A DNA stretch of 52,106 nt, taken from the IMG/VR virus record IMGVR_UViG_3300009008_000053, positions 1-52,106 of that record, one strand, 5' to 3'. A program made the position numbers and the translations under genes. Below the pieces are notes generated by a model. It made no database searches. It was not told the origin of the DNA and saw only the letters and a program-made list of their open reading frames with translations. Below are positions 509-52,075 of the stretch, one piece after another. Origin of the DNA: a virus. Within the stretch, counting starts at the first letter, position 1. The number at the start of each line of letters is the position of its first letter.

Positions 509-3500
509 CTAACCTAACTGGCTTGCGCCGTTTTTCTTTGTGATACTGATCTCGTGATCGGCAATATCGTGTAGATCTCCCACATGGGAAATAATGAAAA
601 TATTGTCGAACATTCTCTTTATTTTATTGAACAGGTGTCTCATGGACTGGAGGTTGTCCTTGTCTAGAGAACCAAATCCCTCGTCAATTACCCATATCGT
701 AGGCTTGGGCAGGCGGCTGATCTTGATCAGTGCGGCTCTCAGTGCTAAGGAGGTTAACATCTTCTCCATACCTGAGGCAACATCGATCAGCCTCTCTTCC
801 CCATCTTCATAGGATAAGTAGACTTGCAGTGCCTTCTTATCAGTGACATCTGGGGTGATGAATACGCTGAAATCCACGATCCCAGACAGGATGTTATTAA
901 CTTCCATGTTAATCGAGGGTAGACTGTTGAGGATCGCCTGATACGGAATGCCATCCCTATGAGTGGCTTTCGCGTACACAGCCAGGGTGTCCCTGCGAGA
1001 GTTAAGGACATCGATACTGTTCAACAAGTCTATATGAGTTTCGAGTTGGCCCTCTATTGTCTTCTTTCTAACTTGCAGATCGATTAGATTTTCTTCGATA
1101 GAAGACAGCTCTCCGTTCTTACGGGCGATACCCTCTTCGATGCCCTCTATACTTTCACGGAGTTTGGTGTTTTGCTCGATGTTCTCCTTATTGCTGTCGT
1201 ACTTGTCAATAGCCTTGGTCCTCTCAGCTATGGACGTATGAAATCCAGTGATCTCACCTTCTAGGCTTCTAATTTCCTCCATGTACCCGACTTTACTTTC
1301 CATCAGAGAACTAATTAGATCGACCGATGCGTTGTAGAATCCAACCTGGAGTACAGCATCTTCCCAATCGATTTCGTCAAGATCAGTCTGAAGGTTTTGG
1401 TGTCTGGTCTGCTCTACGAGTAGTTCTTTTCTTTTTTCCTCTAAACGCTCTTTGTTCTCCCTTGCCTTTGAATATAGGGGGCAGATATTACATACCCCCT
1501 CCGAAAAGGGAATGTCTTCGTCTTTTTCTTCTAAAAGAGAAAGTATCTCCTGGATAGACTCTATCTTAGTCCAGTTTTCCTTGCTATCTTCCAGTAATTT
1601 GTTGTTCCTGCTGATGGTCTGCTGATGGGCATCGACATCGATGTTATCCCTAATCTCAGTCTGCTCCCTAAGCTGCTTTTCGGTGTCCTCCAGATTACGC
1701 TTTACGGATGATAAATTCCCAGACAGTCTAACAACTTCGTTCGTGTCTCGCGAACGATTCTTTTCTGCAAGTTCCCTAAAGTTAGGTTCAAAAGTAAACT
1801 CTGGCTTTAGCCTAGCAGCGAGGTTGCTTTTGTGTTTCTCGTTCAAATCAATGTCTGTTAGGAGAAGATCCTTGGCGGTGAGGAAATCTTCAATACTGTC
1901 CGACACGTTCGAAAGTACCTCAGCACTCCCCTCTACTTCTCCTTCTAACATAAGGTTTGACTCAGTTATTCTGATTTCCTGGCTAATTCCGTTAAGCTCG
2001 TCCTTAGCCAGATTGTATTTCTCTTCCAGGAAGTCCAGCCCCAGGAACCTAATCAGTGTGTCCTTGCGATCCGTGGCCTGAGTGTTGATGAAAGCTTCGA
2101 TGTCGCCTTGTGCGGAGAACGACGTCAGTAGGAAATCATTGACGCTTCCAAAGTAGCTCTCGATGATTTTGTCGGTTTCCTTCTTATCGACTCCGTTTAG
2201 GGCCACCCACTTCCCATCTTTCATTACCTCAAAATCAACAGATCCCGTGGCACGAGTTACCTTCGGACCACTGGTAATCTTCAGCTTGACATTGATCAGT
2301 CTAGCTTTACGCTTGATCCTGTACAGCTTCTCGTGAAGATTTAGAAACACAGTGGACGAACACGAGCGAGTCCCCTTCCGAATAATCTCGCGGACATTCT
2401 TAGTCCTGGACACACTACCATACACAGAATACAGGAAGCTCTCCACCAATGCACTCTTTCCAGTGGCGTTGGGAGCAAAGATCCCCGTGATCCCCTTCTC
2501 ATCGAAATCCAGTCTGTTGCCCTTCCCGTAGGAGAACAGGTTATCAAATTCTAGATACGCGGGGCTCCATATGTTGTTGGCATTGACGTGGGGCTCTATT
2601 CTCTGGTTTAAATCGTTGTCGTAAACAATCAGATCGGAGATCTGATCTTCGTTTAAGTTTTCGGATTGGCCGATAGACTGAAGAGAAGTCCCCACAAACT
2701 CGTTAAGGTCAAAGCCTTCGGTGCCAATACTTCCAGTTTCCAGAGAAAGGTCGTCATCGGGAGGAATACTGATGACCGTAAGGGAAGAAGGGTTATACTT
2801 TTCCCTTAGGGCGCTTTGAATCTCTCCGAACTTTTCTCCAGTGATGTCGTTTGATTCCATCTGCCACAGTACCCTAAGGTCCAAGTGCTTGGCTTCGAAA
2901 TCTAGATCTGGAAGCTCCGTCCCTTCCTTCAAACGGATAGTGTGATACACATGGTCGTTTTCAATCTGAATGAAACGTTTAGTTAGAGTGTCGGTATCCC
3001 ATAGGAGATACCCCTTCTCCTTTTCTTCCCCGAAGTTCTGCTGGATAAGGGAACCTGAGTACGCACGGGTGGCGTTCCCGTCAAGGTCCTGGCGAGTGTG
3101 GATGTCGCCAAGCATTACAATATCGTAGTCTTTGAAATGCTTTGCTGTGTAGTCACCTCTGGTGAAAACGAACCCATCCTTGGTACGGGATCCCTCCAAC
3201 ATGCCATGGGCTACGGCAACTACACAGTGCATGTTATCGAAAGGACGGTCGGCTTCAACATCAAATACATGGTCTAGGTGCGCAAGATGATGGAAATCTA
3301 CTCTAATATCTTCCTTGTAGACTGAAGTTGGAGTATCAATTAGGTGTACATGGGGGAATACACCCTTAATTTCAAACACAGGGGTAAGAGCATCTATTTT
3401 TTCAGTGTTTTTAACATTGAAGTCGTGGTTGCCTGGAAGAACATACGTTTCAGCAATAAGTCCTAGCCCTTCAAAAAATTCGTTAACCAAGATCATAAGT

Positions 3501-3664
3501 TCTGGAGTAAGATCAGTTTTGGAATGTACTACATCCCCTGCTGCTATGATGAGATCAGGTTTTTCTTCCCTGAGGGATGTAAACAACTTTTTAAACACCT
3601 GACGATATTCGTCATGTCTGGATGAAAGTCGTATGTGAATGTCTGCCAGATGCGCTATTTTCAC
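509..3664 (-). CDS. Mre11-Rad50 (SbcD-SbcC, T4 gp47-gp46) single-chain recombination nuclease
   Basis: 1051 residues combine two proteins that are normally separate. Residues 1 to about 250 are a calcineurin-like phosphoesterase: HLADIH, AAGDVVHSK near 44, LPGNHD near 78, then later histidines. From about 370 there is an SMC-type ATPase: Walker A APNATGKS near 398, a long charged region of coiled-coil character with a zinc-hook CNIC near 726, and Walker B PTIWVIDEGFGSLD near 990. The family resects double-strand ends for recombination-dependent replication; T4 uses gp46 and gp47. ATG at 3664 follows a good Shine-Dalgarno. The zinc hook implies dimerisation as in bacterial SbcC. Confidence 0.9.
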   Translation of the reverse strand: MKIAHLADIHIRLSSRHDEYRQVFKKLFTSLREEKPDLIIAAGDVVHSKTDLTPELMILVNEFFEGLGLIAETYVLPGNHDFNVKNTEKIDALTPVFEIKGVFPHVHLIDTPTSVYKEDIRVDFHHLAHLDHVFDVEADRPFDNMHCVVAVAHGMLEGSRTKDGFVFTRGDYTAKHFKDYDIVMLGDIHTRQDLDGNATRAYSGSLIQQNFGEEKEKGYLLWDTDTLTKRFIQIENDHVYHTIRLKEGTELPDLDFEAKHLDLRVLWQMESNDITGEKFGEIQSALREKYNPSSLTVISIPPDDDLSLETGSIGTEGFDLNEFVGTSLQSIGQSENLNEDQISDLIVYDNDLNQRIEPHVNANNIWSPAYLEFDNLFSYGKGNRLDFDEKGITGIFAPNATGKSALVESFLYSVYGSVSRTKNVREIIRKGTRSCSSTVFLNLHEKLYRIKRKARLINVKLKITSGPKVTRATGSVDFEVMKDGKWVALNGVDKKETDKIIESYFGSVNDFLLTSFSAQGDIEAFINTQATDRKDTLIRFLGLDFLEEKYNLAKDELNGISQEIRITESNLMLEGEVEGSAEVLSNVSDSIEDFLTAKDLLLTDIDLNEKHKSNLAARLKPEFTFEPNFRELAEKNRSRDTNEVVRLSGNLSSVKRNLEDTEKQLREQTEIRDNIDVDAHQQTISRNNKLLEDSKENWTKIESIQEILSLLEEKDEDIPFSEGVCNICPLYSKARENKERLEEKRKELLVEQTRHQNLQTDLDEIDWEDAVLQVGFYNASVDLISSLMESKVGYMEEIRSLEGEITGFHTSIAERTKAIDKYDSNKENIEQNTKLRESIEGIEEGIARKNGELSSIEENLIDLQVRKKTIEGQLETHIDLLNSIDVLNSRRDTLAVYAKATHRDGIPYQAILNSLPSINMEVNNILSGIVDFSVFITPDVTDKKALQVYLSYEDGEERLIDVASGMEKMLTSLALRAALIKISRLPKPTIWVIDEGFGSLDKDNLQSMRHLFNKIKRMFDNIFIISHVGDLHDIADHEISITKKNGASQLG

Positions 3665-31172: not shown

Positions 31173-31748
31173 ATGGAACTTGAGGTGATTTACGCTCAAT
31201 GCCCGTATTGCAGATCGGTAATAGATCTGGATGAAGGGAACATCCCTCCTAGACTAATTCAAGAGTGGAAACTTAAGCAGAGAGATACGAAGTTCCTCGA
31301 TGAGACTACTCATTCCATTTCGTGTTATAACTGTAAGAATGTGATAACCTTAAGATGGTCCGATATACCTTTCCCTCACATCGATGATCAGAGGCGAAAG
31401 GTCAAGGTTAAGGAAAGATTGGACATCGTTACCAGAGAAATCTCTGATTTCGTGAAAAACGATTGGGAAGATTTACTGCATAGTGATGCCATTCCCGATT
31501 ACGTGTCGGATGAAGAGGATTTTAATGGATTGTTGAAAAGACTTGACACGTACCCATATAGTGAAGTATTGTGGCGAGAAGCTTTGATACTACTTAAAAT
31601 AAAGAAACAGTGTGAAAGTCTGGTTTTTTCCAGCGATTTAGCAGAGAGTGTAGCCAATGGCGTGGATGTTAAATTGGACAAGATTTTTAGTGGACTTCTT
31701 AAAGTTGAAGAAGCCCTCCATGGAGACGAAGACGATGAAGAAATTTGA
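31173..31748 (+). CDS. Zinc-ribbon hypothetical protein, 191 aa
   Basis: GGAGG 8 bases before ATG. Two CxxC pairs (C10/C13 in CPYCRS and C51/C54 in CYNCKN) about 40 residues apart form a treble-clef-like zinc ribbon. The remaining 130 residues are helical and acidic, ending GDEDDEEI. No enzyme motif is present. The downstream amidase starts inside its 3' end, so the two are co-translated. A transcription or replication accessory role is possible, but nothing here proves it. Confidence 0.65.
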   Translation: MELEVIYAQCPYCRSVIDLDEGNIPPRLIQEWKLKQRDTKFLDETTHSISCYNCKNVITLRWSDIPFPHIDDQRRKVKVKERLDIVTREISDFVKNDWEDLLHSDAIPDYVSDEEDFNGLLKRLDTYPYSEVLWREALILLKIKKQCESLVFSSDLAESVANGVDVKLDKIFSGLLKVEEALHGDEDDEEI

Positions 31749-32160
31749 ACATAGGTATCCTGATGGAATAGTTCTCCATCATTCTGCGTCTTCATGGGCT
31801 GGGGTTAACACTGAGGTTATTCGTGAGTGGCATTTGAGTCGTGGGTTTGCTGATATTGGTTACCACTTTGTAATTACTAAAGAAGGCGTCATCGAAGAGG
31901 GAAGACCACTTAAGTACAAGGGAGCACACTGTAAAGCTCAACAGAAGAATCACACTTCCATTGGGGTCTGTTTGGTGGGTGACTCTACTAAAGATGGATT
32001 TAAGCCCATTCAGAGAAAAGCTTTGGTATACCTGATTGGGTACCTAGAAGCCAGATACGGTCAGGTATTTAAAATTTCTCAGCATAGCGATTGGGAGCCC
32101 AACAAGCCATACTGTGCGGGATTTACCGCCGAACAATTTGAAGGACTAAGAGATGTCTGA
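31735..32160 (+). CDS. N-acetylmuramoyl-L-alanine amidase (T7 lysozyme / PGRP family endolysin)
   Basis: 141 residues from ATG 31735 with GGAG 9 bases upstream; an ATG 15 bases earlier has no site. The T7 lysozyme pattern is present: LHHSAS (H15/H16), IREWHLSRGFADIGYHFVI with Y43, TSIGVCLVGD, and HSDWEPNKPYC with H117, K124 and C127. These give the zinc ligands and catalytic Tyr/Lys. The enzyme cuts the bond between muramic acid and the peptide stem at lysis. There is no signal peptide, so a holin is needed. Confidence 0.9.
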   Translation: MKKFEHRYPDGIVLHHSASSWAGVNTEVIREWHLSRGFADIGYHFVITKEGVIEEGRPLKYKGAHCKAQQKNHTSIGVCLVGDSTKDGFKPIQRKALVYLIGYLEARYGQVFKISQHSDWEPNKPYCAGFTAEQFEGLRDV

Positions 32161-32575
32161 TTTTGGAAACTGGAATAACTTAAGAACTTATAATACCTTC
32201 ACTGGTGGTGCTGGTTGGGGCTTCATAGGGGACAGAGAAGTTGCTTTGTCTGGGATCGTTCCTGGCGTCACTCCCAATAACTCTCAATGGTACTATCAGA
32301 CGATATACCGTCAGATTGGGACTTTGATTGACGAAATTTGGCGGCTACAAACACTTCTTGCTCCCGTGGCGGGCAAATACCCCGTAAATGGGGGTGAGCC
32401 GTCGAACGTACAGTATCCATCAAACATTAGTGATGATGTGATTACTCACTGGTTTGGATCTCAGAACGGAGATAACTATCCTGACCCCAGCTTGTATCCG
32501 AACGCCATTGTCTACAAGACGGTATTTGAAAACCTAGCTCACATCTTTGATAGGCTGGATGCGGCTGGAATCTAA
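32153..32575 (+). CDS. Hypothetical protein, 140 aa
   Basis: The ATG overlaps the amidase stop by 8 bases, with AAGGA upstream. The sequence (FGNWNNLRTYNTFTGGAG at the N-terminus, NSQWYYQTIYRQIGTLIDEI in the middle) is aromatic and without a recognised domain. It could be a small virion protein or lysis accessory. It is the last gene before the structured, non-coding 32576-32808 region. Confidence 0.6.
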   Translation: MSDFGNWNNLRTYNTFTGGAGWGFIGDREVALSGIVPGVTPNNSQWYYQTIYRQIGTLIDEIWRLQTLLAPVAGKYPVNGGEPSNVQYPSNISDDVITHWFGSQNGDNYPDPSLYPNAIVYKTVFENLAHIFDRLDAAGI

Positions 32576-32639: not shown

Positions 32640-32690
32640 ATGCTCGTCTTTGATTTTATGATAGGTCTGAATCTTCTAGACCTATTTTGA
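32640..32690 (+). CDS. Possible 16-aa leader peptide
   Basis: ATG 32640 to TGA 32690 encodes MLVFDFMIGLNLLDLF after an excellent AAAGGAGGG site. The peptide is hydrophobic. It ends 26 bases before the 20-bp palindrome. It may be a real micropeptide, a leader, or chance. Confidence 0.35.
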   Translation: MLVFDFMIGLNLLDLF

Positions 32691-32715: not shown

Positions 32716-32735
32716 TAGTTCAAACGTTTGAACTA
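32716..32735. promoter_or_regulatory. 20-bp perfect palindrome next to a promoter (operator candidate)
   Basis: TAGTTCAAACGTTTGAACTA reads identically on both strands and abuts the -35 box at 32736. A dimeric regulator could bind here; the winged-helix protein at 45198 is one candidate. It is not followed by a T tract. Confidence 0.55.
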
Positions 32736-32764
32736 TTTACTTAAGGTACTCGAAAGGGTACAAT
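32736..32764 (+). promoter_or_regulatory. Promoter of the holin-candidate operon
   Basis: TTTACT at 32736-32741 and TACAAT at 32759-32764 with a 17-base spacer. The expected start point, near 32771, lies inside the following terminator hairpin. Confidence 0.55.
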
Positions 32765-32765
32765 G

Positions 32766-32792
32766 GGGGATCCTTTAGGGGATCCCCTTTTT
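32766..32792 (+). terminator. Intrinsic terminator overlapping the promoter start point
   Basis: GGGGATCC (32766-32773) pairs with GGATCCCC (32780-32787) around TTTAGG, followed by TTTTT. It would stop transcripts arriving from upstream. Confidence 0.8.
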
Positions 32793-32808
32793 AATCCTAG
32801 GAGGAAAA

Positions 32809-33096
32809 ATGGATACAGTAGTAACTCCCGAAGGTATTCAACAGATAGTGACTTGGTACCAGCTTCTTGCTGCCGTACTAGTCCTTCCTGTTGTTACTGA
32901 CTGGATTAAGAAATTGTCATTCATTAAGACTAGTTGGTATTCAGCAATTCCGCTAGTACTTGGTGCGGTGTCAAACGTGATCCTAGCTTTATCTCAGGGT
33001 ACCGATCTTTGGACCGCTCTTGCGGTTGGATTGGGTCTTGGTGCTACGGCTAGTGGAACAAGAAACTTTGTTACAAAGTCGATTCTAAATCGTTAA
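32809..33096 (+). CDS. Holin candidate, small two-helix membrane protein
   Basis: 95 residues after AGGAGG. Two hydrophobic segments are visible: about 17-30 (YQLLAAVLVLPVVTDWI) and about 46-62 (IPLVLGAVSNVILALS), with a third Gly/Ala-rich stretch (ALAVGLGLGATASG) and a basic C-terminus. Size, topology and closeness to the amidase and 3D-domain protein fit a holin, which opens the inner membrane for the endolysin. Small membrane proteins share little sequence, so this is by context. Own promoter and terminator separate it from the amidase operon. Confidence 0.55.
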   Translation: MDTVVTPEGIQQIVTWYQLLAAVLVLPVVTDWIKKLSFIKTSWYSAIPLVLGAVSNVILALSQGTDLWTALAVGLGLGATASGTRNFVTKSILNR

Positions 33097-33114
33097 CGAT
33101 AGGAGAAATACAGT

Positions 33115-33333
33115 ATGCTTCAATTCACAGTTGTACAGGTAGACAATGGGTACATTTTGCAGTTCCCCCCTGCAGGTCCGAATCAGCAGGGACATGCTTT
33201 GGTGTACGCCTCTTTGCCCCAGGTGCTTCAGCAGCTAGAGGAAATGTTCCTTCAGTCTGAAGAGTCTAAGAACGCCGCTGCCGCAGCGCTTGCTGAGGCC
33301 CAGGCCGAAACTGAGGCCGCTACTCAAGAGTAA
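33115..33333 (+). CDS. Hypothetical protein, 72 aa
   Basis: AGGAG 9 bases before ATG. The first half is beta-like (MLQFTVVQVDNGYILQFPP) and the second an Ala/Glu-rich helix ending ALAEAQAETEAATQE, likely a coiled coil. It shares the short transcript with the holin candidate and is closed by the promoter-terminator composite at 33340-33397. A holin accessory or antiholin is possible but unsupported. Confidence 0.6.
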   Translation: MLQFTVVQVDNGYILQFPPAGPNQQGHALVYASLPQVLQQLEEMFLQSEESKNAAAAALAEAQAETEAATQE

Positions 33334-33339
33334 AAATGG

Positions 33340-33369
33340 TTTACTAGAGAAGCAGTCTTGTGTTATAAT
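33340..33369 (+). promoter_or_regulatory. Promoter of the DNA polymerase operon
   Basis: TTTACT at 33340-33345 and TATAAT at 33364-33369, 18-base spacer. The -35 box is the same TTTACT as at 32736. The expected start near 33376 falls in the 5' arm of the terminator hairpin that follows. Confidence 0.65.
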
Positions 33370-33397
33370 GGGGAGTCCCTAGGGACTCCCCGTTTTT
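33370..33397 (+). terminator. Intrinsic terminator overlapping the polymerase promoter start point
   Basis: GGGGAGTCCC (33370-33379) is complementary to GGGACTCCCC (33382-33391), followed by GTTTTT. It closes the holin-candidate transcript. Confidence 0.82.
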
Positions 33398-33415
33398 GTA
33401 TATGGAGGTTATTTG

Positions 33416-35752
33416 ATGAATGAAACTTACGAGTTCGGGAGTACACTCCTGAATAGGTTGTATCCGTTTTCCGAGGGGATGGTGTCGAAAGACATCCGAA
33501 TCAAAGTTACGGATAAAGAAGAGTATAACTTAGACAAGATCAAGATGCTAGTCCAGTCCATTTTGGACGAATTCGGCCTTTGGCATCGTACCGAGTTAGT
33601 TGAAGACAACGCAGATCTCACTCTTTCTGCCCATACTCTTATGGGTCTTCTGAAGGATTGGGACGCTTCATACGCGGACGTAGAAAAGCAGATCCAGGGT
33701 TTTATTGATTCGAAGCAGCCACCCCGAGTTATCCTGGCCGAAAGTATCGCGGATCTCAAGGAGATCATCCGACACTGTAAGCGCCGTCCATTTGCCTGGG
33801 ATACCGAAACCGTGGATCTCAAGGATCTGACCCTTCTTATGGCGTCATTCACGATTAGGACGAGCAGCGGGTACCTTAACTACGTCATCCCCGTACATCA
33901 CAAAGACTCCATGCTCCCTGTGGAGAAGAGCCTTAAAGCCATCCGCAAGATCCTCTTTGAATCCAATAAAACTCGTATGGCGCATAACGTCAAGTTCGAC
34001 TCTCACGTAATTAAGCATAATCTGGGTGATTTCCCTCCTTTCTATTCTCCAGAGGGGAAGCTCATCCAGTACGATACTATGATGGCCTACTACACGGTGT
34101 TCAACCGCTCTGTCCCCCTAGGACTTAAGGCTCTCTCCCAGGCTCTGTTCCATTCTGGGGACTATGAAGCCGAACTCTACCAGATCCTAAAGGCAAAGTT
34201 TAAGAAGAAGGCCGACTGGAAGTTCGATGTTATTCCCTTGAGTGTCTTCTACAAATATGCTGGTCTGGACAGCTATTACACCTACCGTCTAATGGAGACT
34301 ATCAACCCGATCCTTAAGAAGGTCCATGGCGGGAAATCCAACAAGCTGTTCAAGAAGCACATCATGCCCGTTTTGGAGTGTATCACCAAGATGGAAGACA
34401 ACCGCATGTGCATCGACTTGGATTGGGCCAACGCGTATAACCTCCAACTGGAATCCTTTAAGGACTCGATAGAAGCGGGGATTTGTGATGAAGAGGTCAT
34501 CAAGGAGAACTTTGACAAGTTCAATATCGGTAGCACCAAGGATCTACAGCGTCTATTTTTCGATGTACTTGACACAAAGACGCGTAAGAAGACAAAGACA
34601 GGCTTTTCGACAGATGCTGGCACCATGGAACTCATTGCCAAAGAGCATGGCCCCGCCGCCAGCATCGCTGGTCGTTTAGTGTCATACCGAAAAGCCAAAA
34701 AGATCCAGGATTATCTGAATGCGTTCATCAACAATGTGAACAAGGAAAAACTCCTGATGCCTTCTTTCGCTCCCCACGGGACAGTATCGGGGAGGTTGGC
34801 TTCATTCGGTGACTTTAACGCTCAGAACTTCCCTAGGGATAAGGTGGGTGTAAAGCGGTCTGTGATCTCCAGATTCGGGGACGATGGGTGTATCGTTAAC
34901 GTGGACTACGCTACCCTGGAGTTTAGAGTTGCTGCCGCTTTGAGCAAAGACAAGTATTTGTACGAAATCCTTAAGGACCCGAAAGCAGATCTCCATACGG
35001 CTACTGCGGCCCTTATCTTCAGCAAGGATGCGGACGACGTTACCAAGGAAGAGAGATATGTCGCCAAGACTATTAACTTCAGCATCATCTTCGGTGCTGG
35101 TCATAAGAAGATAGCGTGGATGGTTAACTCTTCTGGGAAGCTGGAAGATGAGTTAACTACGGATGCCGCCAAGGTGATCCTGGAGGACTACAAGAAGACC
35201 TACAGTGGTCTAGTTAAGGCGATGACGGAAGCGCAGGGATTCGCGGATCGTAAGGGGTACACTCCTACTCACTTTGGCCGTGTTCGCCTTTTCCCAGAGC
35301 TTCTGAATCCTAGGCTTGGACAGTGGGACAGGTACAAGTATCTCCGTGAGGCATACAGCATGGTGGTCCAGTCCCTTGCCGTGGACATCGGCTTTACCGC
35401 TCTCAAGCAGCTTACTCGTATTTTCGAGAAGGAAGGGTACAAGAGCAAGATCATCAATCAGGTCCATGACTCTCTGGTGTTTGACATTCATTTGGATGAA
35501 TTCGATAAGGTTATCCCTACGATCCGAAAGGTGATGGAAGAGACAGCCGTCCCCGACATCATCAATCTTCCCATTCCCATCGATGTGGAGTTTGGGTCTT
35601 CATACGAGGATCTCGCCGTTTACGAAGATGATATGGACATAAACGGAGTGCGGGAGACAGTTAAGAAGATGAGACTGGAGGTGTTTAGGCAGTCCATGGA
35701 CATCGATGAGTACGCAGAGAGTGTCATCTCCGTTGATTTCGAAAATACTTAA
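33416..35752 (+). CDS. DNA polymerase, family A, with 3'-5' exonuclease domain
   Basis: 778 residues from ATG 33416; GGAGG lies 7 bases upstream, and an in-frame TTG 3 bases earlier is unlikely. The exonuclease domain begins near 125 with FAWDTETVDL (the DxE pair) and later YAGLDSYYTYR. Polymerase motifs are complete: motif A NVDYATLEFRVAAAL near 497, motif B RYVAKTINFSIIFGAG near 545, motif C NQVHDSLVF near 681. Motif B aligns with the O-helix of E. coli Pol I: the residue matching F762 is Phe and that matching Y766 is Phe rather than Tyr. It is the replicative polymerase of the phage. Confidence 0.95.
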   Translation: MNETYEFGSTLLNRLYPFSEGMVSKDIRIKVTDKEEYNLDKIKMLVQSILDEFGLWHRTELVEDNADLTLSAHTLMGLLKDWDASYADVEKQIQGFIDSKQPPRVILAESIADLKEIIRHCKRRPFAWDTETVDLKDLTLLMASFTIRTSSGYLNYVIPVHHKDSMLPVEKSLKAIRKILFESNKTRMAHNVKFDSHVIKHNLGDFPPFYSPEGKLIQYDTMMAYYTVFNRSVPLGLKALSQALFHSGDYEAELYQILKAKFKKKADWKFDVIPLSVFYKYAGLDSYYTYRLMETINPILKKVHGGKSNKLFKKHIMPVLECITKMEDNRMCIDLDWANAYNLQLESFKDSIEAGICDEEVIKENFDKFNIGSTKDLQRLFFDVLDTKTRKKTKTGFSTDAGTMELIAKEHGPAASIAGRLVSYRKAKKIQDYLNAFINNVNKEKLLMPSFAPHGTVSGRLASFGDFNAQNFPRDKVGVKRSVISRFGDDGCIVNVDYATLEFRVAAALSKDKYLYEILKDPKADLHTATAALIFSKDADDVTKEERYVAKTINFSIIFGAGHKKIAWMVNSSGKLEDELTTDAAKVILEDYKKTYSGLVKAMTEAQGFADRKGYTPTHFGRVRLFPELLNPRLGQWDRYKYLREAYSMVVQSLAVDIGFTALKQLTRIFEKEGYKSKIINQVHDSLVFDIHLDEFDKVIPTIRKVMEETAVPDIINLPIPIDVEFGSSYEDLAVYEDDMDINGVRETVKKMRLEVFRQSMDIDEYAESVISVDFENT

Positions 35753-44267: not shown

Positions 44268-44293
44268 AGCCCTGCCCTTTAGGTGGGGCTTTT
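44268..44293 (+). terminator. Intrinsic terminator after the heparinase-like gene
   Basis: AGCCCTGCC (44268-44276) pairs with GGTGGGGCT (44282-44290) with two wobble pairs around CTTTA, then TTT. Confidence 0.7.
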
Positions 44294-44325
44294 CCGTATT
44301 TTCGAGAACGCAAGTATAAAACTCA

Positions 44326-44354
44326 TTGACTCCAAGTTGTAGGTGTGGTATAAT
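44326..44354 (+). promoter_or_regulatory. Sigma70-type promoter before the metallophosphoesterase
   Basis: TTGACT at 44326-44331 and TATAAT at 44349-44354, 17-base spacer, with GTGTGG directly before the -10 box (an extended -10 TGn). The same GTGG-TATAAT context recurs at 48414, 48488 and 50631. Confidence 0.85.
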
Positions 44355-44375: not shown

Positions 44376-45122
44376 ATGGCTGGAAAGGTTTTAATTACTG
44401 GTGATACTCATGGTGATTTTAGCAGGTTTCAGAACATCGATCCTTTAGGGATCGATAGGGATGACGTTGTTATCATCGCTGGTGATTTTGGGGGGATTTG
44501 GGATCAAGAAGAGACCGCCCGCGAGCGCCTGCTCCTTGATCGTGTCCGTGAACGTCCGTGGACCACGGCTTTTGTCTGTGGGAATCACGAGAATTTCGAT
44601 CGCCTTGATACTCTTCCTGTTGAGGAAAAGTGGGGCGGTAAGGTTGGGCGCGTAAACGAGTCCATTTTTCATCTGAAGCGTGGGGAGATCTACACTATCG
44701 GTGGGCAGAAGATTTTCTGCTTCGGTGGTGCTGCTTCGATTGATAAGATGTGGAGGACTGAGGGTGTTTCTTGGTGGCCTCAGGAGATTCCGTCTGTTGC
44801 TGAGATGGATTATGCTCTGGAGAACCTCGAAAAGCATGGTAATAAGGTGGATCTCGTGATTACCCACACCATGCCCCATGAGGCTGTTCAGGAGTTTGAG
44901 GAATCTGGTTTGTCCCCCCAGGGTTTTGAGGCTATGGCTTTGAAGATGCATGAGCCTACACCGAAATTCCTTTCCGAGATACTGGATAGGGTTGATTTCG
45001 GCGCTTGGTTCTGTGGCCATTTTCACGTAGATACGCCTTTCTTAGGTGGGTCAATTCAGTGTCTCTATGAGATGGTGGTAGACACTACTGTTTATCAGGA
45101 TCGTAAGCGTAAGAGGGGTTGA
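44376..45122 (+). CDS. Calcineurin-like metallophosphoesterase
   Basis: 248 residues after AAGGAGG. All family motifs are present: GDTHG (D10, H12), GDFGG (D37), GNHEN (N70, H71), a later VITHTMPH near 165, and GHFH near 215. The family hydrolyses phosphomono- or diesters with two metals; substrates range from proteins to nucleotides and RNA ends, and cannot be told here. It has its own strong early-type promoter. With the cyclic-phosphate receiver protein three genes later it may take part in RNA-end processing; this is inference. Confidence 0.85.
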   Translation: MAGKVLITGDTHGDFSRFQNIDPLGIDRDDVVIIAGDFGGIWDQEETARERLLLDRVRERPWTTAFVCGNHENFDRLDTLPVEEKWGGKVGRVNESIFHLKRGEIYTIGGQKIFCFGGAASIDKMWRTEGVSWWPQEIPSVAEMDYALENLEKHGNKVDLVITHTMPHEAVQEFEESGLSPQGFEAMALKMHEPTPKFLSEILDRVDFGAWFCGHFHVDTPFLGGSIQCLYEMVVDTTVYQDRKRKRG

Positions 45123-45148
45123 CTTAAATCCCTCTTACGTGTTATAAT
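45119..45148 (+). promoter_or_regulatory. Promoter overlapping the phosphoesterase stop codon
   Basis: TTGACT at 45119-45124 contains the TGA stop; TATAAT is at 45143-45148, 18-base spacer. The transcript leader before the next gene contains a small GGCC-TGC-GGGCC hairpin near 45167. Confidence 0.8.
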
Positions 45149-45197
45149 TTTTCCGAAGCTAGAAACGGCCTGCGGGCCACAAAAAAGAGGTTTTGAT

Positions 45198-48628: not shown

Positions 48629-48700
48629 GCGGGTATAGCTCAACGGTGAGAGCAGGCGGCTTATATCCGTCCGACCCTAGTTCAACTCTAGGTACCCGTA
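48629..48700 (+). tRNA. tRNA-Ile (anticodon UAU)
   Basis: Acceptor GCGGGTA/TACCCGT, D-stem GCTC/GAGC, anticodon arm GGCGG-CTTATAT-CCGTC, T-arm CCTAG-TTCAACT-CTAGG, discriminator A. Reads AUA, a codon often poorly served by hosts. CCA is not encoded. Confidence 0.85.
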
Positions 48701-49193
48701 CCTTTTCCCATGGGAGTGGGACTGCTGTTTGGTCGGTACAGCATAAACAATCGATCGCGGAAAGTGGGCAAAGTCGCGTTACTAAATCGTTCATCCTGGT
48801 GCTGGTACTAGCTAAGAGCACTAATTAACAAAACGGGATTGAGTTCCTGGTCTTAGCTTAGGGGGAGTAACGATTGCTTCTAGACTTTCGTCTTCCTCGT
48901 TTTTGGGTCACAAAAAGTGGCCGATCGTTTAAAGCCGAAGTGCACTACGATTGGCAGAGGGAGCGTTACCCTCGTGATCCACCTGAAGTAGGAGATGTGA
49001 GTTCAAGTCTCACTTAAGGTGGCTGCTGTAAACTGGAAAAATGTCGGTTCAATTCCGACTTAAGGCAGTCATTCGTATCGTCTAATGGATAAGACACCTA
49101 CACATTTTGTTTCGGGGGTGAACTAGATTCGATCTCTGTGAACAAAGGTTTGCGGGGAGACTTGGGAGCATTGCCCAACACCTCCAAAATTTT
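48701..49193 (+). ncRNA. 490-base stretch of tRNA-like and other structured pieces, no complete canonical tRNA
   Basis: I see a TGCTGT/ACAGCA hairpin near 48722; T-arms GTGAG-TTCAAGT-CTCAC (48997-49013) and GTCGG-TTCAATT-CCGAC (49043-49059), both followed by TTAAGG; a canonical D-arm GTCT-AATGGATA-AGAC at 49080-49095; and two 5-bp hairpins with loop AGCGTTA (48957-48973) and AGCATTG (49162-49178). The latter are followed by GTGATCC and CACCTCC, which pair with GGGTCAC (48905) and GGGGGTG (49114) at tRNA distance. No coding frame of note. Confidence 0.5.
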
Positions 49194-49276
49194 GCCAGCA
49201 CGGCGACGAGGGCGAGTCGCGGCAGACTGTAAATCTGTTCCCGATGGGTGAGTAGGTTCGAATCCTTCTGCTGGCA
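49194..49276 (+). tRNA. tRNA-Tyr (anticodon GUA)
   Basis: Acceptor GCCAGCA/TGCTGGC, D-stem GCGA/TCGC, anticodon arm GCAGA-CTGTAAA-TCTGT, long variable arm (class II, correct for Tyr), T-arm GTAGG-TTCGAAT-CCTTC, discriminator A. Confidence 0.93.
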
Positions 49277-49286
49277 CCGATTTTTG

Positions 49287-49356
49287 GCACGGAACGCTAA
49301 CGGTATGCGGCTTGATTCTCAGTCAAGTGTTAGCGGGTTCGATTCCCGTCCGTGCT
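49287..49356 (+). tRNA. tRNA-Glu (anticodon CUC)
   Basis: Acceptor GCACGGA/TCCGTGC, short D-stem CGC/GCG, anticodon arm CTTGA-TTCTCAG-TCAAG, T-arm GCGGG-TTCGATT-CCCGT. Discriminator T is unusual for Glu. Confidence 0.85.
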
Positions 49357-49418
49357 TCCTAGGTGGTGTCACGACTTATCGTGGCTTAAATGGATCCTGT
49401 GGGTTCGGCCATCGGTTT

Positions 49419-49494
49419 GCGGTGTTAGCTTAGTCTGGTCTAAAGCGCTTGCCTGTCGAGCAAGAGATCGCGAGTTCGAATCTCGTACACTGCG
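49419..49494 (+). tRNA. tRNA-Asp (anticodon GUC)
   Basis: Acceptor GCGGTGT/ACACTGC, D-stem GCTT/AAGC, anticodon arm CTTGC-CTGTCGA-GCAAG, T-arm GCGAG-TTCGAAT-CTCGT, discriminator G as expected for Asp. Confidence 0.93.
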
Positions 49495-49502
49495 CCTAGT
49501 TT

Positions 49503-49576
49503 GCCCCTGTAGCTCAGCGGAAGAGAGCAATCGGTTTCTACCCGATAGGTCGAGCGTTCGAATCGTTCCAGGGGTG
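49503..49576 (+). tRNA. tRNA-Arg (anticodon UCU)
   Basis: Acceptor GCCCCTG/CAGGGGT, D-stem GCTC/GAGC, anticodon arm ATCGG-TTTCTAC-CCGAT, T-arm GAGCG-TTCGAAT-CGTTC, discriminator G. Reads AGA, a common phage tRNA. Confidence 0.92.
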
Positions 49577-49580
49577 CCTA

Positions 49581-49650
49581 GCGTCACATGGCTGAAAATG
49601 ACGCCCTCACGGCCTGTGGGGTGGTGTTAGAGCACCAAGCAAAAGCCATG
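49581..49650 (+). ncRNA. Pseudoknot RNA, copy 1
   Basis: P1 GCGTCA (49581-49586) with TGACGC (49599-49604). The loop strand CATGGCT (49587-49593) pairs with AGCCATG (49644-49650), giving an H-type pseudoknot. Between them lie hairpins CCTCAC/GTGGGG and TGGTG/CACCA, then an A-rich linker. Copy 2 follows at once with the same plan and compensatory base changes. Confidence 0.7.
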
Positions 49651-49656
49651 CGTTTA

Positions 49657-49729
49657 GCGTTAATCGGCTGAAAGTAACGTCCCTCCATCTGCGGGGGTGA
49701 GGGGGAACCCCTTCGTAAAAAAAGCCGAT
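49657..49729 (+). ncRNA. Pseudoknot RNA, copy 2
   Basis: P1 GCGTTA (49657-49662) with TAACGT (49675-49680). ATCGGCT (49663-49669) pairs with AGCCGAT (49723-49729). Inner hairpins CCCTC/GGGGG and GAGGGG with CCCTTC, then an A-rich linker. GGCTGAAA is shared with copy 1. It ends 5 bases before tRNA-Thr. Confidence 0.7.
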
Positions 49730-49734
49730 GTTTA

Positions 49735-49809
49735 GCCTCGCTAGCTTAAATGGACTAAAGCGACTGTCTTGTAAACAGTTAGATTTCGGTTCGAATCCGA
49801 AGTGAGGCT
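49735..49809 (+). tRNA. tRNA-Thr (anticodon UGU)
   Basis: Acceptor GCCTCGC/GTGAGGC, D-stem GCTT/AAGC, anticodon arm ACTGT-CTTGTAA-ACAGT, T-arm TTCGG-TTCGAAT-CCGAA, discriminator T. Confidence 0.93.
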
Positions 49810-50036
49810 CCTCGTTATCGACAGTGTGTAGCTTAAGTGTAAAGTCCCCACGTTGGAGTGGGGGGATACTATAGCGTCGTCGCTGGTCGCACGATTGATA
49901 ACGGATCTCATGGCCACTTGATGGGGGAAAGGCTTAATTACCCTAGTACCCTGGAAGCTGCAGACTCTTAATCAAATAGGTAGCCCTCCGCAACGACGAT
50001 TGGGTTCATTGATGAGTCAAGTCGCGTGAGATTTTT
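49810..50036 (+). ncRNA. 227-base structured gap between tRNA-Thr and tRNA-Lys
   Basis: CGTTATC (49813-49819) pairs perfectly with GATAACG (49897-49903) and encloses a tRNA-like D-arm (TA-GCTT-AAGTGTA-AAGT) and the hairpin CCCCAC-GTTGGA-GTGGGG, an anticodon-arm-like stem with a 6-base loop holding UGG. The rest includes CTCTTAA (as in tRNA-Lys loops) without a matching stem. No T-loop and no coding frame. It may be a degenerate tRNA plus unknown RNA. Confidence 0.4.
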
Positions 50037-50110
50037 GCACCTGTAACTCAATTAGGTAGAGTAGCGCCCTCTTAAGGCGAACGTTCGGGGTTCGATTCCC
50101 TGCAGGTGTA
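50037..50110 (+). tRNA. tRNA-Lys (anticodon CUU)
   Basis: Acceptor GCACCTG/CAGGTGT, D-stem ACTC/GAGT, anticodon arm GCGCC-CTCTTAA-GGCGA, T-arm CGGGG-TTCGATT-CCCTG, discriminator A. Confidence 0.9.
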
Positions 50111-50120
50111 CTTAAAATGT

Positions 50121-50191
50121 GGGCTCCTAGCTCAAGGGGGAGAGCCCTATCAAGCTGGTAGAAGATCCAGGTTCGACCCCTGGGGAGTTCC
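50121..50191 (+). tRNA. tRNA with shortened anticodon arm (identity undetermined)
   Basis: Acceptor GGGCTCC/GGAGTTC, D-arm GCTC-AAGGGGGA-GAGC and T-arm CCAGG-TTCGACC-CCTGG are canonical. The anticodon arm CTATCAAGCTGGTAG has 15 bases instead of 17: either 5-bp stems with a 5-base loop AAGCT, or 4-bp stems with loop CAAGCTG lacking U33. It may be a pseudogene or a deliberately altered tRNA. Confidence 0.7.
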
Positions 50192-50202
50192 ACCTAACAT
50201 TC

Positions 50203-50274
50203 GGGCGATTGGCGTAACTGGTAACGCATAAGCTTTGCAAGCTTGAGTAAGGAGTTCGATTCTCCTATCGTCCA
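50203..50274 (+). tRNA. tRNA-Ala (anticodon UGC)
   Basis: Acceptor GGGCGAT/ATCGTCC, D-stem GCGT/ACGC, anticodon arm TAAGC-TTTGCAA-GCTTG, T-arm AGGAG-TTCGATT-CTCCT, discriminator A. The D-loop AACTGGTA recurs in tRNA-Lys at 51626. Confidence 0.92.
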
Positions 50275-50287
50275 CCTAAAACATTGT

Positions 50288-50410
50288 CGTTTCAAGCAGT
50301 TTTCTCCAGATTCTTTAGTTAGAGAAGTAATTTGTGAAAGTAACATGGTATACCTTTGTCCTAACCATCACAAAGAGCTAGACAAAGGTAAACTTGATTT
50401 AAGCGAGTGA
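50288..50410 (+). pseudogene. HNH endonuclease C-terminal remnant 1
   Basis: An open stretch of about 40 codons ends TGA 50410 inside the next tRNA. It encodes RFKQFSPDSLVREV followed by NMVYLCPNHHKELDKGKL, the LCPNxH end of HNH homing endonucleases. The N-terminal catalytic part is missing, so it is a decayed fragment. It also contains a 10-bp inverted repeat, TACCTTTGTC and GACAAAGGTA. Confidence 0.6.
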
Positions 50411-50486
50411 AGTCTACTTGGTATGACATCAGGCTTCCAACCTGACGGGGTAAAACCCATTGCGCGTTCGAATCGCGTCACTCGCT
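50403..50486 (+). tRNA. tRNA-Gly (anticodon UCC) with class II variable arm
   Basis: Acceptor GCGAGTG/CACTCGC, D-stem GTC/GAC, anticodon arm TCAGG-CTTCCAA-CCTGA, T-arm GCGCG-TTCGAAT-CGCGT, discriminator T as in tRNA-Gly. The variable region of 16 bases folds GGG-GTAAAA-CCC, unexpected for Gly. It overlaps the end of the HNH remnant. Confidence 0.85.
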
Positions 50487-50495
50487 CCGATTTTT

Positions 50496-50585
50496 ATCGC
50501 GGTACCCGAGTTTGGTCTAAGGGAGGGACCTGCAAAGTCCTCTGGAGAGAGATCTCTTTCGTGGGTTCAAATCCCACCCGCGATT
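50496..50585 (+). tRNA. tRNA-Cys (anticodon GCA) with class II variable arm
   Basis: Acceptor ATCGCGG/CCGCGAT, D-stem CCC/GGG with a Ser/Leu-type D-loop, anticodon arm GGGAC-CTGCAAA-GTCCT, T-arm GTGGG-TTCAAAT-CCCAC, discriminator T as in tRNA-Cys. The 19-base variable region containing AGAGATCTCT forms an extra arm, unusual for Cys. Confidence 0.85.
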
Positions 50586-50606
50586 CTTACGTAAACGTAA
50601 AATGGA

Positions 50607-50636
50607 TTGACCGAAGATCCTGAGATGTGGTATAAT
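50607..50636 (+). promoter_or_regulatory. Promoter inside the tRNA cluster
   Basis: TTGACC at 50607-50612 and TATAAT at 50631-50636, 18-base spacer, ATGTGG before the -10 box, as at the other early-type promoters. It drives the small genes that follow and probably the distal tRNAs. Confidence 0.85.
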
Positions 50637-50668
50637 AATTCTGTCACTGAAACGAAAGGGTTGACGAA

Positions 50669-50923
50669 ATGGGCGAGTTTAGGGTTAATGGTCGGCGTGG
50701 TATGGTGCCGATGCATGAAATGGGTCACGACGACGTTGGGATTTTTGATGGTGGGACGGATGAATCAGAGGAATGGATCGTCATGCGGCGTAACGGTGGG
50801 GTTATTTGCATCGATCCCAATGGGAGGATCGGGATCTGGGCTTCTGAGATGTCAAAGTCGTTGACTGATCCTGTTAGGATTCTTCCCAAGGGAACTAAGA
50901 TCGCGGTGGAGTTTGAGGTATAG
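50669..50923 (+). CDS. Hypothetical protein, 84 aa
   Basis: The first gene after the 50607 promoter, with AAAGGG about 10 bases before ATG. The product (MGEFRVNGRRGMVPMHEMGH, EEWIVMRRNGGVICIDPNGR) looks like a small beta protein. No family recognised. It is one of three tiny genes embedded between tRNA blocks. Confidence 0.6.
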   Translation: MGEFRVNGRRGMVPMHEMGHDDVGIFDGGTDESEEWIVMRRNGGVICIDPNGRIGIWASEMSKSLTDPVRILPKGTKIAVEFEV

Positions 50924-50927
50924 CAGT

Positions 50928-51080
50928 TTGGCGCAAACGGACAAGGCTTTGGCCCGATGTCTTCTCACGGACAACGAATTCTGGTTTGTTAGCTATAAGC
51001 ATGTCATGGACCAGATTCGTCAAATAGGGGTGGGCAGCGCGTGGTTTGCGCTTTTTGATCAGGAGGTGAATCATGGGTGA
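50928..51080 (+). CDS. Possible small protein with TTG start, 50 aa
   Basis: TTG 50928 to TGA 51080, with GAGG 9 bases upstream. The product contains QTDKALARCLLTDNEFWFVS and IRQIGVGSAWFALFDQEVN, a plausible globular composition. It fills the gap exactly and overlaps the next ATG by 8 bases. No ATG or GTG start upstream; the call rests on spacing and overlap. Confidence 0.45.
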   Translation: MAQTDKALARCLLTDNEFWFVSYKHVMDQIRQIGVGSAWFALFDQEVNHG

Positions 51081-51228
51081 CGTTGGGCAGGACAATGTTC
51101 GGGTTAGAGATCCCTGGCCCGTGGTTTGCAAGGGGTGTGGTAAGACTTTCATGTTCGATCCCAGAAACGTTAAGTATTACGAGTGTTGTTCTACGGAGTG
51201 TGTCTGGGAGTACGTGGAAAATAGTTGA
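51073..51228 (+). CDS. Small zinc-ribbon protein, 51 aa
   Basis: AGGAGG lies 7 bases before ATG 51073. Cysteines at 19, 22, 38, 39 and 43 (VVCKGCGKTF and YYECCSTECVWEYV) form a zinc ribbon of the kind used for nucleic-acid or protein contacts. The frame overlaps the TTG-start frame before it. Function unknown. Confidence 0.7.
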   Translation: MGDVGQDNVRVRDPWPVVCKGCGKTFMFDPRNVKYYECCSTECVWEYVENS

Positions 51229-51238
51229 GGGGACTATT

Positions 51239-51289
51239 ATGGGAGGACTGCCGAGCCTTCATCTTCTCATCGAGAGAAAGGCGATATAA
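51239..51289 (+). CDS. Possible 16-aa peptide
   Basis: MGGLPSLHLLIERKAI follows GAGGGG by 7 bases, directly after the zinc-ribbon gene. It is too short to judge; the ribosome site is the only support. Confidence 0.25.
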   Translation: MGGLPSLHLLIERKAI

Positions 51290-51388
51290 ACAGGATCGAC
51301 AAAAGCCTGGAAGCGGCAACTTCTGGGGAATAAATCGATCGTCTTTGCCGAGAAAAGCGGGGATACCTCGCCGTCTTTCTCTTTCTTT

Positions 51389-51464
51389 CTACGCGTAGCT
51401 TAGTACGGCCTAAAGCACCTACCTTGGGCGTAGGGGACCGCAGGTTCAAATCCTGCCGCGTAGA
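51389..51464 (+). tRNA. tRNA-Pro (anticodon UGG)
   Basis: Acceptor CTACGCG/CGCGTAG with C1-G72 as in bacterial tRNA-Pro, D-stem GCTT/AAGC, anticodon arm CCTAC-CTTGGGC-GTAGG, T-arm GCAGG-TTCAAAT-CCTGC, discriminator A. Confidence 0.93.
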
Positions 51465-51467
51465 CCT

Positions 51468-51529
51468 TGGAGTTCCCTGTGGTGGGGAAGTAGGGATCAA
51501 ATAGACCAAAAGTCCATGGTCGGCTCCAT
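51468..51529 (+). ncRNA. 62-base tRNA-shaped RNA with non-canonical T-loop
   Basis: TGGAGTT (51468-51474) pairs with GGCTCCA (51522-51528, two wobbles). Directly before it lies the stem GACCA/TGGTC (51504-51508 with 51517-51521) in T-arm position, with the 8-base loop AAAGTCCA. The middle has only one arm, CCCT...AGGG. Not a standard tRNA. Confidence 0.4.
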
Positions 51530-51533
51530 TTTT

Positions 51534-51618
51534 GGCCTTGTGGTGGAATGGGATACACTACGGTCTTAAAAACCGTCGCTCAAAAATGAGATTGAGGGTT
51601 CGAATCCCTCCGAGGCTA
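51534..51618 (+). tRNA. tRNA-Leu (anticodon UAA)
   Basis: Acceptor GGCCTTG/CGAGGCT, D-stem GTG/CAC, anticodon arm ACGGT-CTTAAAA-ACCGT, extra arm CTCA-AAAA-TGAG (class II, correct for Leu), T-arm GAGGG-TTCGAAT-CCCTC, discriminator A. Confidence 0.9.
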
Positions 51619-51625
51619 CCTTTTT

Positions 51626-51697
51626 GGGAGTATGATGTAACTGGTAACATATGGGACTTTTAATCCCTCATTCAGAGTTCGATCCTCTGTGCTCCCA
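51626..51697 (+). tRNA. tRNA-Lys (anticodon UUU)
   Basis: Acceptor GGGAGTA/TGCTCCC, D-stem ATGT/ACAT, anticodon arm TGGGA-CTTTTAA-TCCCT, T-arm CAGAG-TTCGATC-CTCTG, discriminator A. Followed at once by HNH remnant 2. Confidence 0.92.
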
Positions 51698-51698
51698 C

Positions 51699-51821
51699 CT
51701 AACAGACATTAAAGATTTCCCAGAGACTGCACTTTTGGGAGAAGTCAACTCACCAGACAATTTGGTTTTATTATGCCCTAACTGTCATTGGCTTTTTGAT
51801 AGAGGAAAACTAAAAATTTAA
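51699..51821 (+). pseudogene. HNH endonuclease C-terminal remnant 2
   Basis: About 40 open codons ending TAA 51821, one base before tRNA-Asn. Encodes IKDFPETALLGEVNSPDNLV then LLCPNCHWLFDRGKLKI, the zinc/HNH end of a homing endonuclease (CPNCH, DRGK). It aligns with remnant 1 over the whole length. No start codon or catalytic N-terminus is present. Confidence 0.65.
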
Positions 51822-51902
51822 TCAAGGGTCGCTAAGTGGTATAGCATCAGGTTGTTAACCTGACGAGGAAACTCATCGCGGGTTCGATCCCCGCCCCTTG
51901 AT
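51822..51902 (+). tRNA. tRNA-Asn (anticodon GUU) with class II variable arm
   Basis: Acceptor TCAAGGG/CCCTTGA, D-stem GCT/AGC, anticodon arm TCAGG-TTGTTAA-CCTGA, T-arm GCGGG-TTCGATC-CCCGC. The 14-base variable region forms GAG-GAAA-CTC, unexpected for Asn. The body resembles the tRNA-Gly at 50403. Confidence 0.82.
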
Positions 51903-51907
51903 CCTAT

Positions 51908-51988
51908 GCGCCAATGGTGGAATAGTAGACACGCCACTCTTAGGAAGTGGTGCCGAAAGGTGTGAGGGTGCGAATCCTTCTTGGCGTA
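51908..51988 (+). tRNA. tRNA-Leu (anticodon UAG)
   Basis: Acceptor GCGCCAA/TTGGCGT, D-stem GTG/CAC, anticodon arm CCACT-CTTAGGA-AGTGG, short extra arm, T-stem GAGGG/CCTTC. The T-loop reads TGCGAAT, so the usual T55 is G. Confidence 0.85.
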
Positions 51989-51994
51989 CTTTAT

Positions 51995-52067
51995 GGCTCC
52001 CTACCCCAACGGCAGAGGGAGTGCTTTCAAAAAGCATCGAGTCTGGGTTCGAATCCCAGGGGAGCTA
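51995..52067 (+). tRNA. tRNA with Leu anticodon CAA but class I body
   Basis: Acceptor GGCTCCC/GGGAGCT, D-stem CCC/GGG, anticodon arm GTGCT-TTCAAAA-AGCAT, 5-base variable loop, T-arm CTGGG-TTCGAAT-CCCAG, discriminator A. Leu tRNAs normally have a long extra arm; this one does not. Confidence 0.8.
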
Positions 52068-52075
52068 CCTTTTAT

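Follow-up and report, generated by a model that had tools for sequence, protein, structure and literature searches.

Phages RB49 and phi1, and later other T4-type phages, are said to carry composite promoter/terminator cassettes, the promoter-early stem-loops (PeSLs), in work attributed to Arbiol in 2010 and Comeau in 2014. A PeSL combines a stem-loop terminator with a strong sigma70 promoter in a compact intergenic unit placed between small operons; PeSLs occur as near-identical copies within one genome and act as recombination points. A further known element, the SAS/ESAS of cluster K mycobacteriophages, consists of a conserved sequence associated with starts, located at ribosome sites and preceded by paired repeats. 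When we measured promoter–terminator neighbour pairs in RB49, the stem started 64–81 nt before the end of the −10 box in 13 of the 21 listed pairs; these 13, which we take to be PeSLs, have the order hairpin, T tract and then promoter, with no overlap. In the staphylococcal phage Kayvirus 515A1 the early promoter p98 lies directly 3′ of terminator t97 (PMC7698491).

Here we describe two elements, E1 and E2, found in a 52,106-nt stretch of viral DNA that was analysed as a whole (the window). The elements and the genes around them are as follows.

31657–32160, + strand: amidase/endolysin gene (phrog_822, 3.7e-33), in the block that E1 would end
32153–32575, + strand: 140-aa ORF without a family match, the last full-size gene 5′ of E1
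32736–32764, + strand: predicted E1 promoter; −35 box TTTACT at 32736–32741, −10 box TACAAT at 32759–32764, spacer of 17 nt
32765–32792, + strand: predicted E1 terminator; hairpin at 32765–32788 with 10 bp and a 4-nt loop, T5 tract at 32788–32792
32809–33096, + strand: holin-like gene (phrog_1299, 4.7e-6), the first gene 3′ of E1; GGAGG at 32800–32804
33115–33333, + strand: 72-aa ORF between the holin gene and E2
33340–33369, + strand: predicted E2 promoter; −35 box TTTACT at 33340–33345, −10 box TATAAT at 33364–33369, spacer of 18 nt
33367–33397, + strand: predicted E2 terminator; hairpin of 9–12 bp, T5 tract at 33393–33397
33413–35752, + strand: family A DNA polymerase gene, the first gene 3′ of E2; ATG at 33416 with GGAGG just ahead

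The original prediction placed a TTTACT/TAnAAT promoter, followed by a GC-rich hairpin and a T tract, at 32736–32792 and at 33340–33397, and both composites are indeed there. The 5′ arm of E1 begins with the base right after the −10 box. In E2 the hexamer belongs to an extended −10 (TGTTATAAT), with TG one base ahead of it, and the hairpin, which is the longest palindrome listed for the window, has its core at 33370–33391 and spans 33367–33394 when the A-T/G-T ends are counted. The two hexamers taken together match the consensus at 9 of 12 positions in E1 and at 10 of 12 (plus the TG extension) in E2, the −35 box alone matching at four of six in each. Both elements have the defining feature of an intrinsic terminator, a stable GC-rich hairpin directly against the U tract, with five Ts each. 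Judging by spacing, the +1 position would be near A32770 in E1 and near G33375 in E2. A start seven bases past the −10 box falls inside the 5′ arm, as had been proposed, although not in the middle of it: the position is in the apical part, at pair 7 of 10 in E1 and pair 7 of 9 in E2.

All genes in this neighbourhood are on the + strand. E1 borders the lysin block and the holin gene and E2 borders the holin unit and the DNA polymerase gene; a holin unit of ∼0.6 kb is flanked by the two elements, with lysis/tail genes on one side and replication genes on the other. Each element occupies a short same-strand gap, and a GGAGG ribosome site with a gene start follows ∼40 nt past the predicted +1. A 16-codon ORF at 32640–32690, which we read by eye as MLVFDFMIGLNLLDLF, is located just 5′ of E1; its ribosome site is strong, and its second half is a stable hairpin followed by TTTT (z −2.9). 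A perfect 20-bp palindrome, TAGTTCAAACGTTTGAACTA, at 32716–32735 adjoins the E1 −35 box, with its centre at about −44 from the predicted start. This palindrome has no second copy in the window at up to three mismatches; an activator or a repressor of the holin unit may bind there.

By sequence and energy E1 and E2 resemble PeSLs in that each holds both a stem-loop terminator and a sigma70-type promoter within a single short intergenic element. They differ from PeSLs as measured in RB49 in that the order is reversed, with the promoter first and the hairpin over the start point, and they differ from the repeated PeSL copies in that, within these 52 kb of genome, neither E1 nor E2 is a direct repeat of the other. 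They may well work like PeSLs, yet they depart from them in ordering and in repeats, and we do not file them as members. The idea of a promoter/terminator composite is not new in itself, PeSLs being the precedent; it is the overlapping register that sets E1 and E2 apart from the measured RB49 pairs. The boundary in Kayvirus 515A1 is similar in that terminator and promoter are packed together, and late transcription reportedly runs through this terminator (PMC7698491); it differs in having the promoter 3′ of the terminator, and the available part of that article does not describe a shared arm (PMC7698491). In the literature searched we found no description of a phage promoter with its start inside a terminator arm, though one may yet exist in print.

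In readthrough RNA the hairpin against the U tract has an energy of −15.8 kcal/mol in E1 and −18.6 kcal/mol in E2, while in RNA begun 5, 6, 7, 8 or 9 nt past the −10 box the most stable hairpin in contact with the U tract has −2.5 kcal/mol in both. We think it likely that each of E1 and E2 marks an operon boundary by means of an intrinsic terminator built partly from the same bases as a sigma70-type promoter, and that it stops arriving polymerase and releases its own. Polymerase coming from upstream would transcribe the whole hairpin and terminate at the U tract. Polymerase that uses the element's own promoter would start inside the 5′ arm, and its RNA, being without most of that arm, would form no terminator and would read into the next gene. 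E1 would then close the tail/lysin block and open the short holin unit, and E2 would close the holin unit and open the DNA polymerase block. We infer here, from the sequence, the use of the promoters, the position of the starts, the termination and the net insulation. In whole-leader folds of RNA started at E1, the 3′ arm, GGGGATCCCC, being a short palindrome in its own right, leaves a weak 4-bp hairpin next to the U tract; some early termination is therefore possible. The claim that readthrough RNA terminates and locally started RNA escapes agrees with the observed geometry, energies, gene context and recurrence (see below), with the reserve that escape from E1 may be incomplete.

Two more composites in the window combine the same kinds of signals in other arrangements.

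44268–44354, + strand: tandem pair, a terminator hairpin and then a TTGACT-N17-TATAAT promoter
45103–45152, + strand: related composite in another register, an 18-bp terminator-like hairpin with TTGACT (−35) in the loop and TATAAT (−10) merging with the T tract (MFE −23.0, z −6.5)

The first of these shows the PeSL order as in RB49, terminator and then promoter. In the second the tail, TATAATTTTT, is both −10 box and T tract; an upstream stop codon is inside the hairpin loop. The phage appears to lay stop and start signals over one another in several registers; in each, all or most of the 5′ arm precedes the start point. Strong promoters at 44326, 48390, 48464 and 50607 have the form TTGAC-N-...-TGGTATAAT, with an extended −10, unlike the TTTACT pair, and possibly constitute a separate expression class. 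Elsewhere in the window, 17 tRNA genes are arrayed at 48629–52069, at the right end of the record, and a 1051-aa ORF on the minus strand (509–3664) has SbcD-like N-terminal and SbcC-like C-terminal family matches; a long ORF of Microcystis phage Mel-JY01 is similar to it.

The alternative that survives best is that E1 and E2 are ordinary terminators and that the promoter-like hexamers ahead of them are coincidental. This would be in keeping with −35 boxes that match at only four of six positions and with the regional scan, where promoter-like sites were in no excess (19 observed versus 25.3 expected). The layout of E1 and E2 is nonetheless real and non-random. A search of the 52-kb window with TTTACTN{16,19}TANAAT gave exactly two matches, E1 and E2; shuffled sequences gave a mean of 0.21, and two or more matches in one of 100 shuffles. 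E1 and E2 are also the top two terminator-like sites by strength in a scan of 25–42 kb. We defined strong terminators by at least 6 bp, at least four GC pairs and a T tract, promoter-like sites by nine of 12 consensus bases, and an overlap by a −10 end at −3 to +5 nt from the 5′ arm of a strong terminator. Two of the nine strong terminators of the window showed an overlap, and these two were E1 and E2, which share the −35 hexamer as well; given 67 promoter-like sites on both strands, ∼0.05 overlaps are expected (Poisson P about 0.001, by post hoc arithmetic). None of 167 strong terminators across 80 polA phage loci, a set not selected for overlap, had one. Individual genomes gave 2/56 in Syn9 (one convincing), 1/38 in Mel-JY01, 0/30 in T5 (100 kb scanned) and 3/55 in RB49 (none judged convincing); at RB49 site 3179, on the minus strand, the overlap was of another type, with the −10 box inside the loop. 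Many terminator calls in these comparison sets are probably chance hairpins within genes, which dilutes a comparison that is itself post hoc.

Close relatives of the phage were found neither by a near-DNA search nor by single-protein scans nor by a polymerase-alignment scan (best 80 loci kept, best segments 24–33% identical), and a search with the holin protein in phages gave no match. We therefore searched for the layout itself in other sequences. The pattern TATAATGGGGN{8,30}CCCCNTTTT had at least 120 matches in IMG/VR, and a version with a scrambled −10 motif likewise had at least 120, those listed being a non-random sample in each case; removal of redundancy at >85% identity reduced the 120 listed to 76 for the real −10 motif and to 70 for the scrambled one. 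Among the matches listed, 28 of the 76 non-redundant cases had TTGACA, with at least five of six bases matching, at 16–18 nt; the spacing showed a sharp peak at 17 nt (21 matches), and positions offset as a control gave ∼3%. With the scrambled −10 a TTGACA-like −35 box was seen in 5 of 70 matches listed (Fisher P 2e-5 versus the real −10). This control is conservative, several of its matches reading TATAATATGGGG, which is the real motif moved by 2 nt. The remaining matches without a −35 box are probably, for the most part, terminators with a chance TATAAT. Parallel elements in other phages that carry full TTGACA boxes speak against coincidence, as does the finding of two overlaps among nine strong terminators here versus none among 167 at the polA loci, and we judge coincidence to be unlikely.

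A second pattern, TTGACAN{16,18}TATAATGGGGN{8,30}CCCC, in which the T tract was not required, was found in 74 viral and 67 bacterial/archaeal stretches, both counts apparently complete. In 41 of the 74 viral stretches, versus two of the 67 others, the arms were joined in a hairpin with a T tract after it (P 9e-13 before redundancy removal); the 41 were reduced to 15 when those with >80% identity were dropped. One of the two bacterial/archaeal positives, L419, is a short contig binned as uncultured Lewinella that has four Syn9-like ORFs, and is probably viral, that is, mis-binned phage DNA. Contigs with at least three Syn9-like ORFs accounted for 20 of the 28 promoter-bearing cases and five of the 36 cases without a −35 box (both among the matches listed), and for three of the 80 polymerase loci. 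The carriers of the layout thus appear to be mostly T4-like cyanophage contigs.

Among the matches listed, an ORF ended within 40 nt before the −10 box in 24 of the 28 promoter-bearing cases and an ORF started within 60 nt past the predicted +1 in 21 (both in 18); the same counts for the 36 cases without a −35 box were 24 and 22 (both in 16). With such similar counts, the two groups are not told apart by boundary position alone. ORF starts at 16–23 nt cluster mainly in the promoter-bearing set. A single candidate out of 15 viral stretches, L004, was plausible as a true TTTACT composite; its neighbour genes are on the other strand and we rejected it as a coincidence. One marine viral family (L009, L010, L011, L015 and L016) has TTTACT...TATAATGGGGGG with a long hairpin and no T tract.

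The Syn9 composite, which begins at 168317 right after psbD (gene end at 168316), exemplifies the T4-like cyanophage composites. They share with E1 and E2 the sequence of TATAAT, 0–2 nt, a G-run hairpin and a T tract, as well as the context, with a gene end just 5′ and a gene start ∼20 nt past the predicted +1. They differ in having a TTGACA-like −35 box and in belonging to another phage group. We found no description of them in the literature searched.

E1 and E2 could also be sites of regulated escape or attenuation, where the choice of start site or an antiterminator sets the passage of RNA, making each a switch and not a fixed insulator. A G-rich stretch right after the −10 box, as E1 and E2 have, is linked to supercoiling- and ppGpp-sensitive promoters, and the residual 4-bp hairpin in E1 RNA and the structured mini-ORF region upstream of E1 would suit such a switch too. 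We consider it very unlikely, since neither a regulator nor an alternative hairpin nor a conserved leader was found; the leaders that would begin at the predicted starts are no more stably folded than shuffled sequences.

Covariation of the arms bears on whether the hairpin acts as RNA. Past the four outermost pairs, 31 non-redundant promoter-bearing hairpins contain A-T, T-A, C-G and G-C pairs in similar numbers. The native arms pair with a mean of −11.3 kcal/mol, and none of 2000 re-pairings of the 31 hairpins was as stable (best −9.1). Such a pattern speaks for pairing in RNA more than for a palindrome that a protein binds. The presence of a −35 box made no significant difference to the length, arm length, stability or residual energy of the hairpins (P 0.08–0.24), which thus offer no independent evidence of an arm length fitted to the start site. 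That the hairpins are DNA operators, palindromes over −10/+1 bound by a regulator with the T tract incidental, is hardly tenable: E2 is a perfect 22-bp DNA palindrome and the separate 20-bp palindrome adjoins the −35 box of E1, but the palindromes of E1 and E2 are unlike in sequence, and the parallel elements vary their arms yet keep pairing, with T tracts after them, as expected of an RNA structure and not of one binding site.

Beyond the reading of E1 and E2 as operon boundaries stands a broader one, which we hold with evenly balanced confidence: that a start inside the stem makes a distinct, repeatedly used viral operon boundary of ∼60 bp, in which the start cuts the 5′ arm so that arriving polymerase is stopped and the element's own is released, frequent in T4-like cyanophages, shared by this phage of a different kind and almost never seen in bacterial chromosomes. 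Use of the layout in cyanophages is apparently wide. The model predicts exact 5′ and 3′ ends, which can be checked against existing RNA data from cyanophage infections. If it is true, annotation that calls promoters and terminators separately would be misled by such elements, and gene circuits would gain a small part. Terminators would not be simple stop signs, the same letters meaning stop or go depending on where the RNA started, and a very compact insulator of this kind would explain how operons are kept separate without spacers in tightly packed phage genomes.
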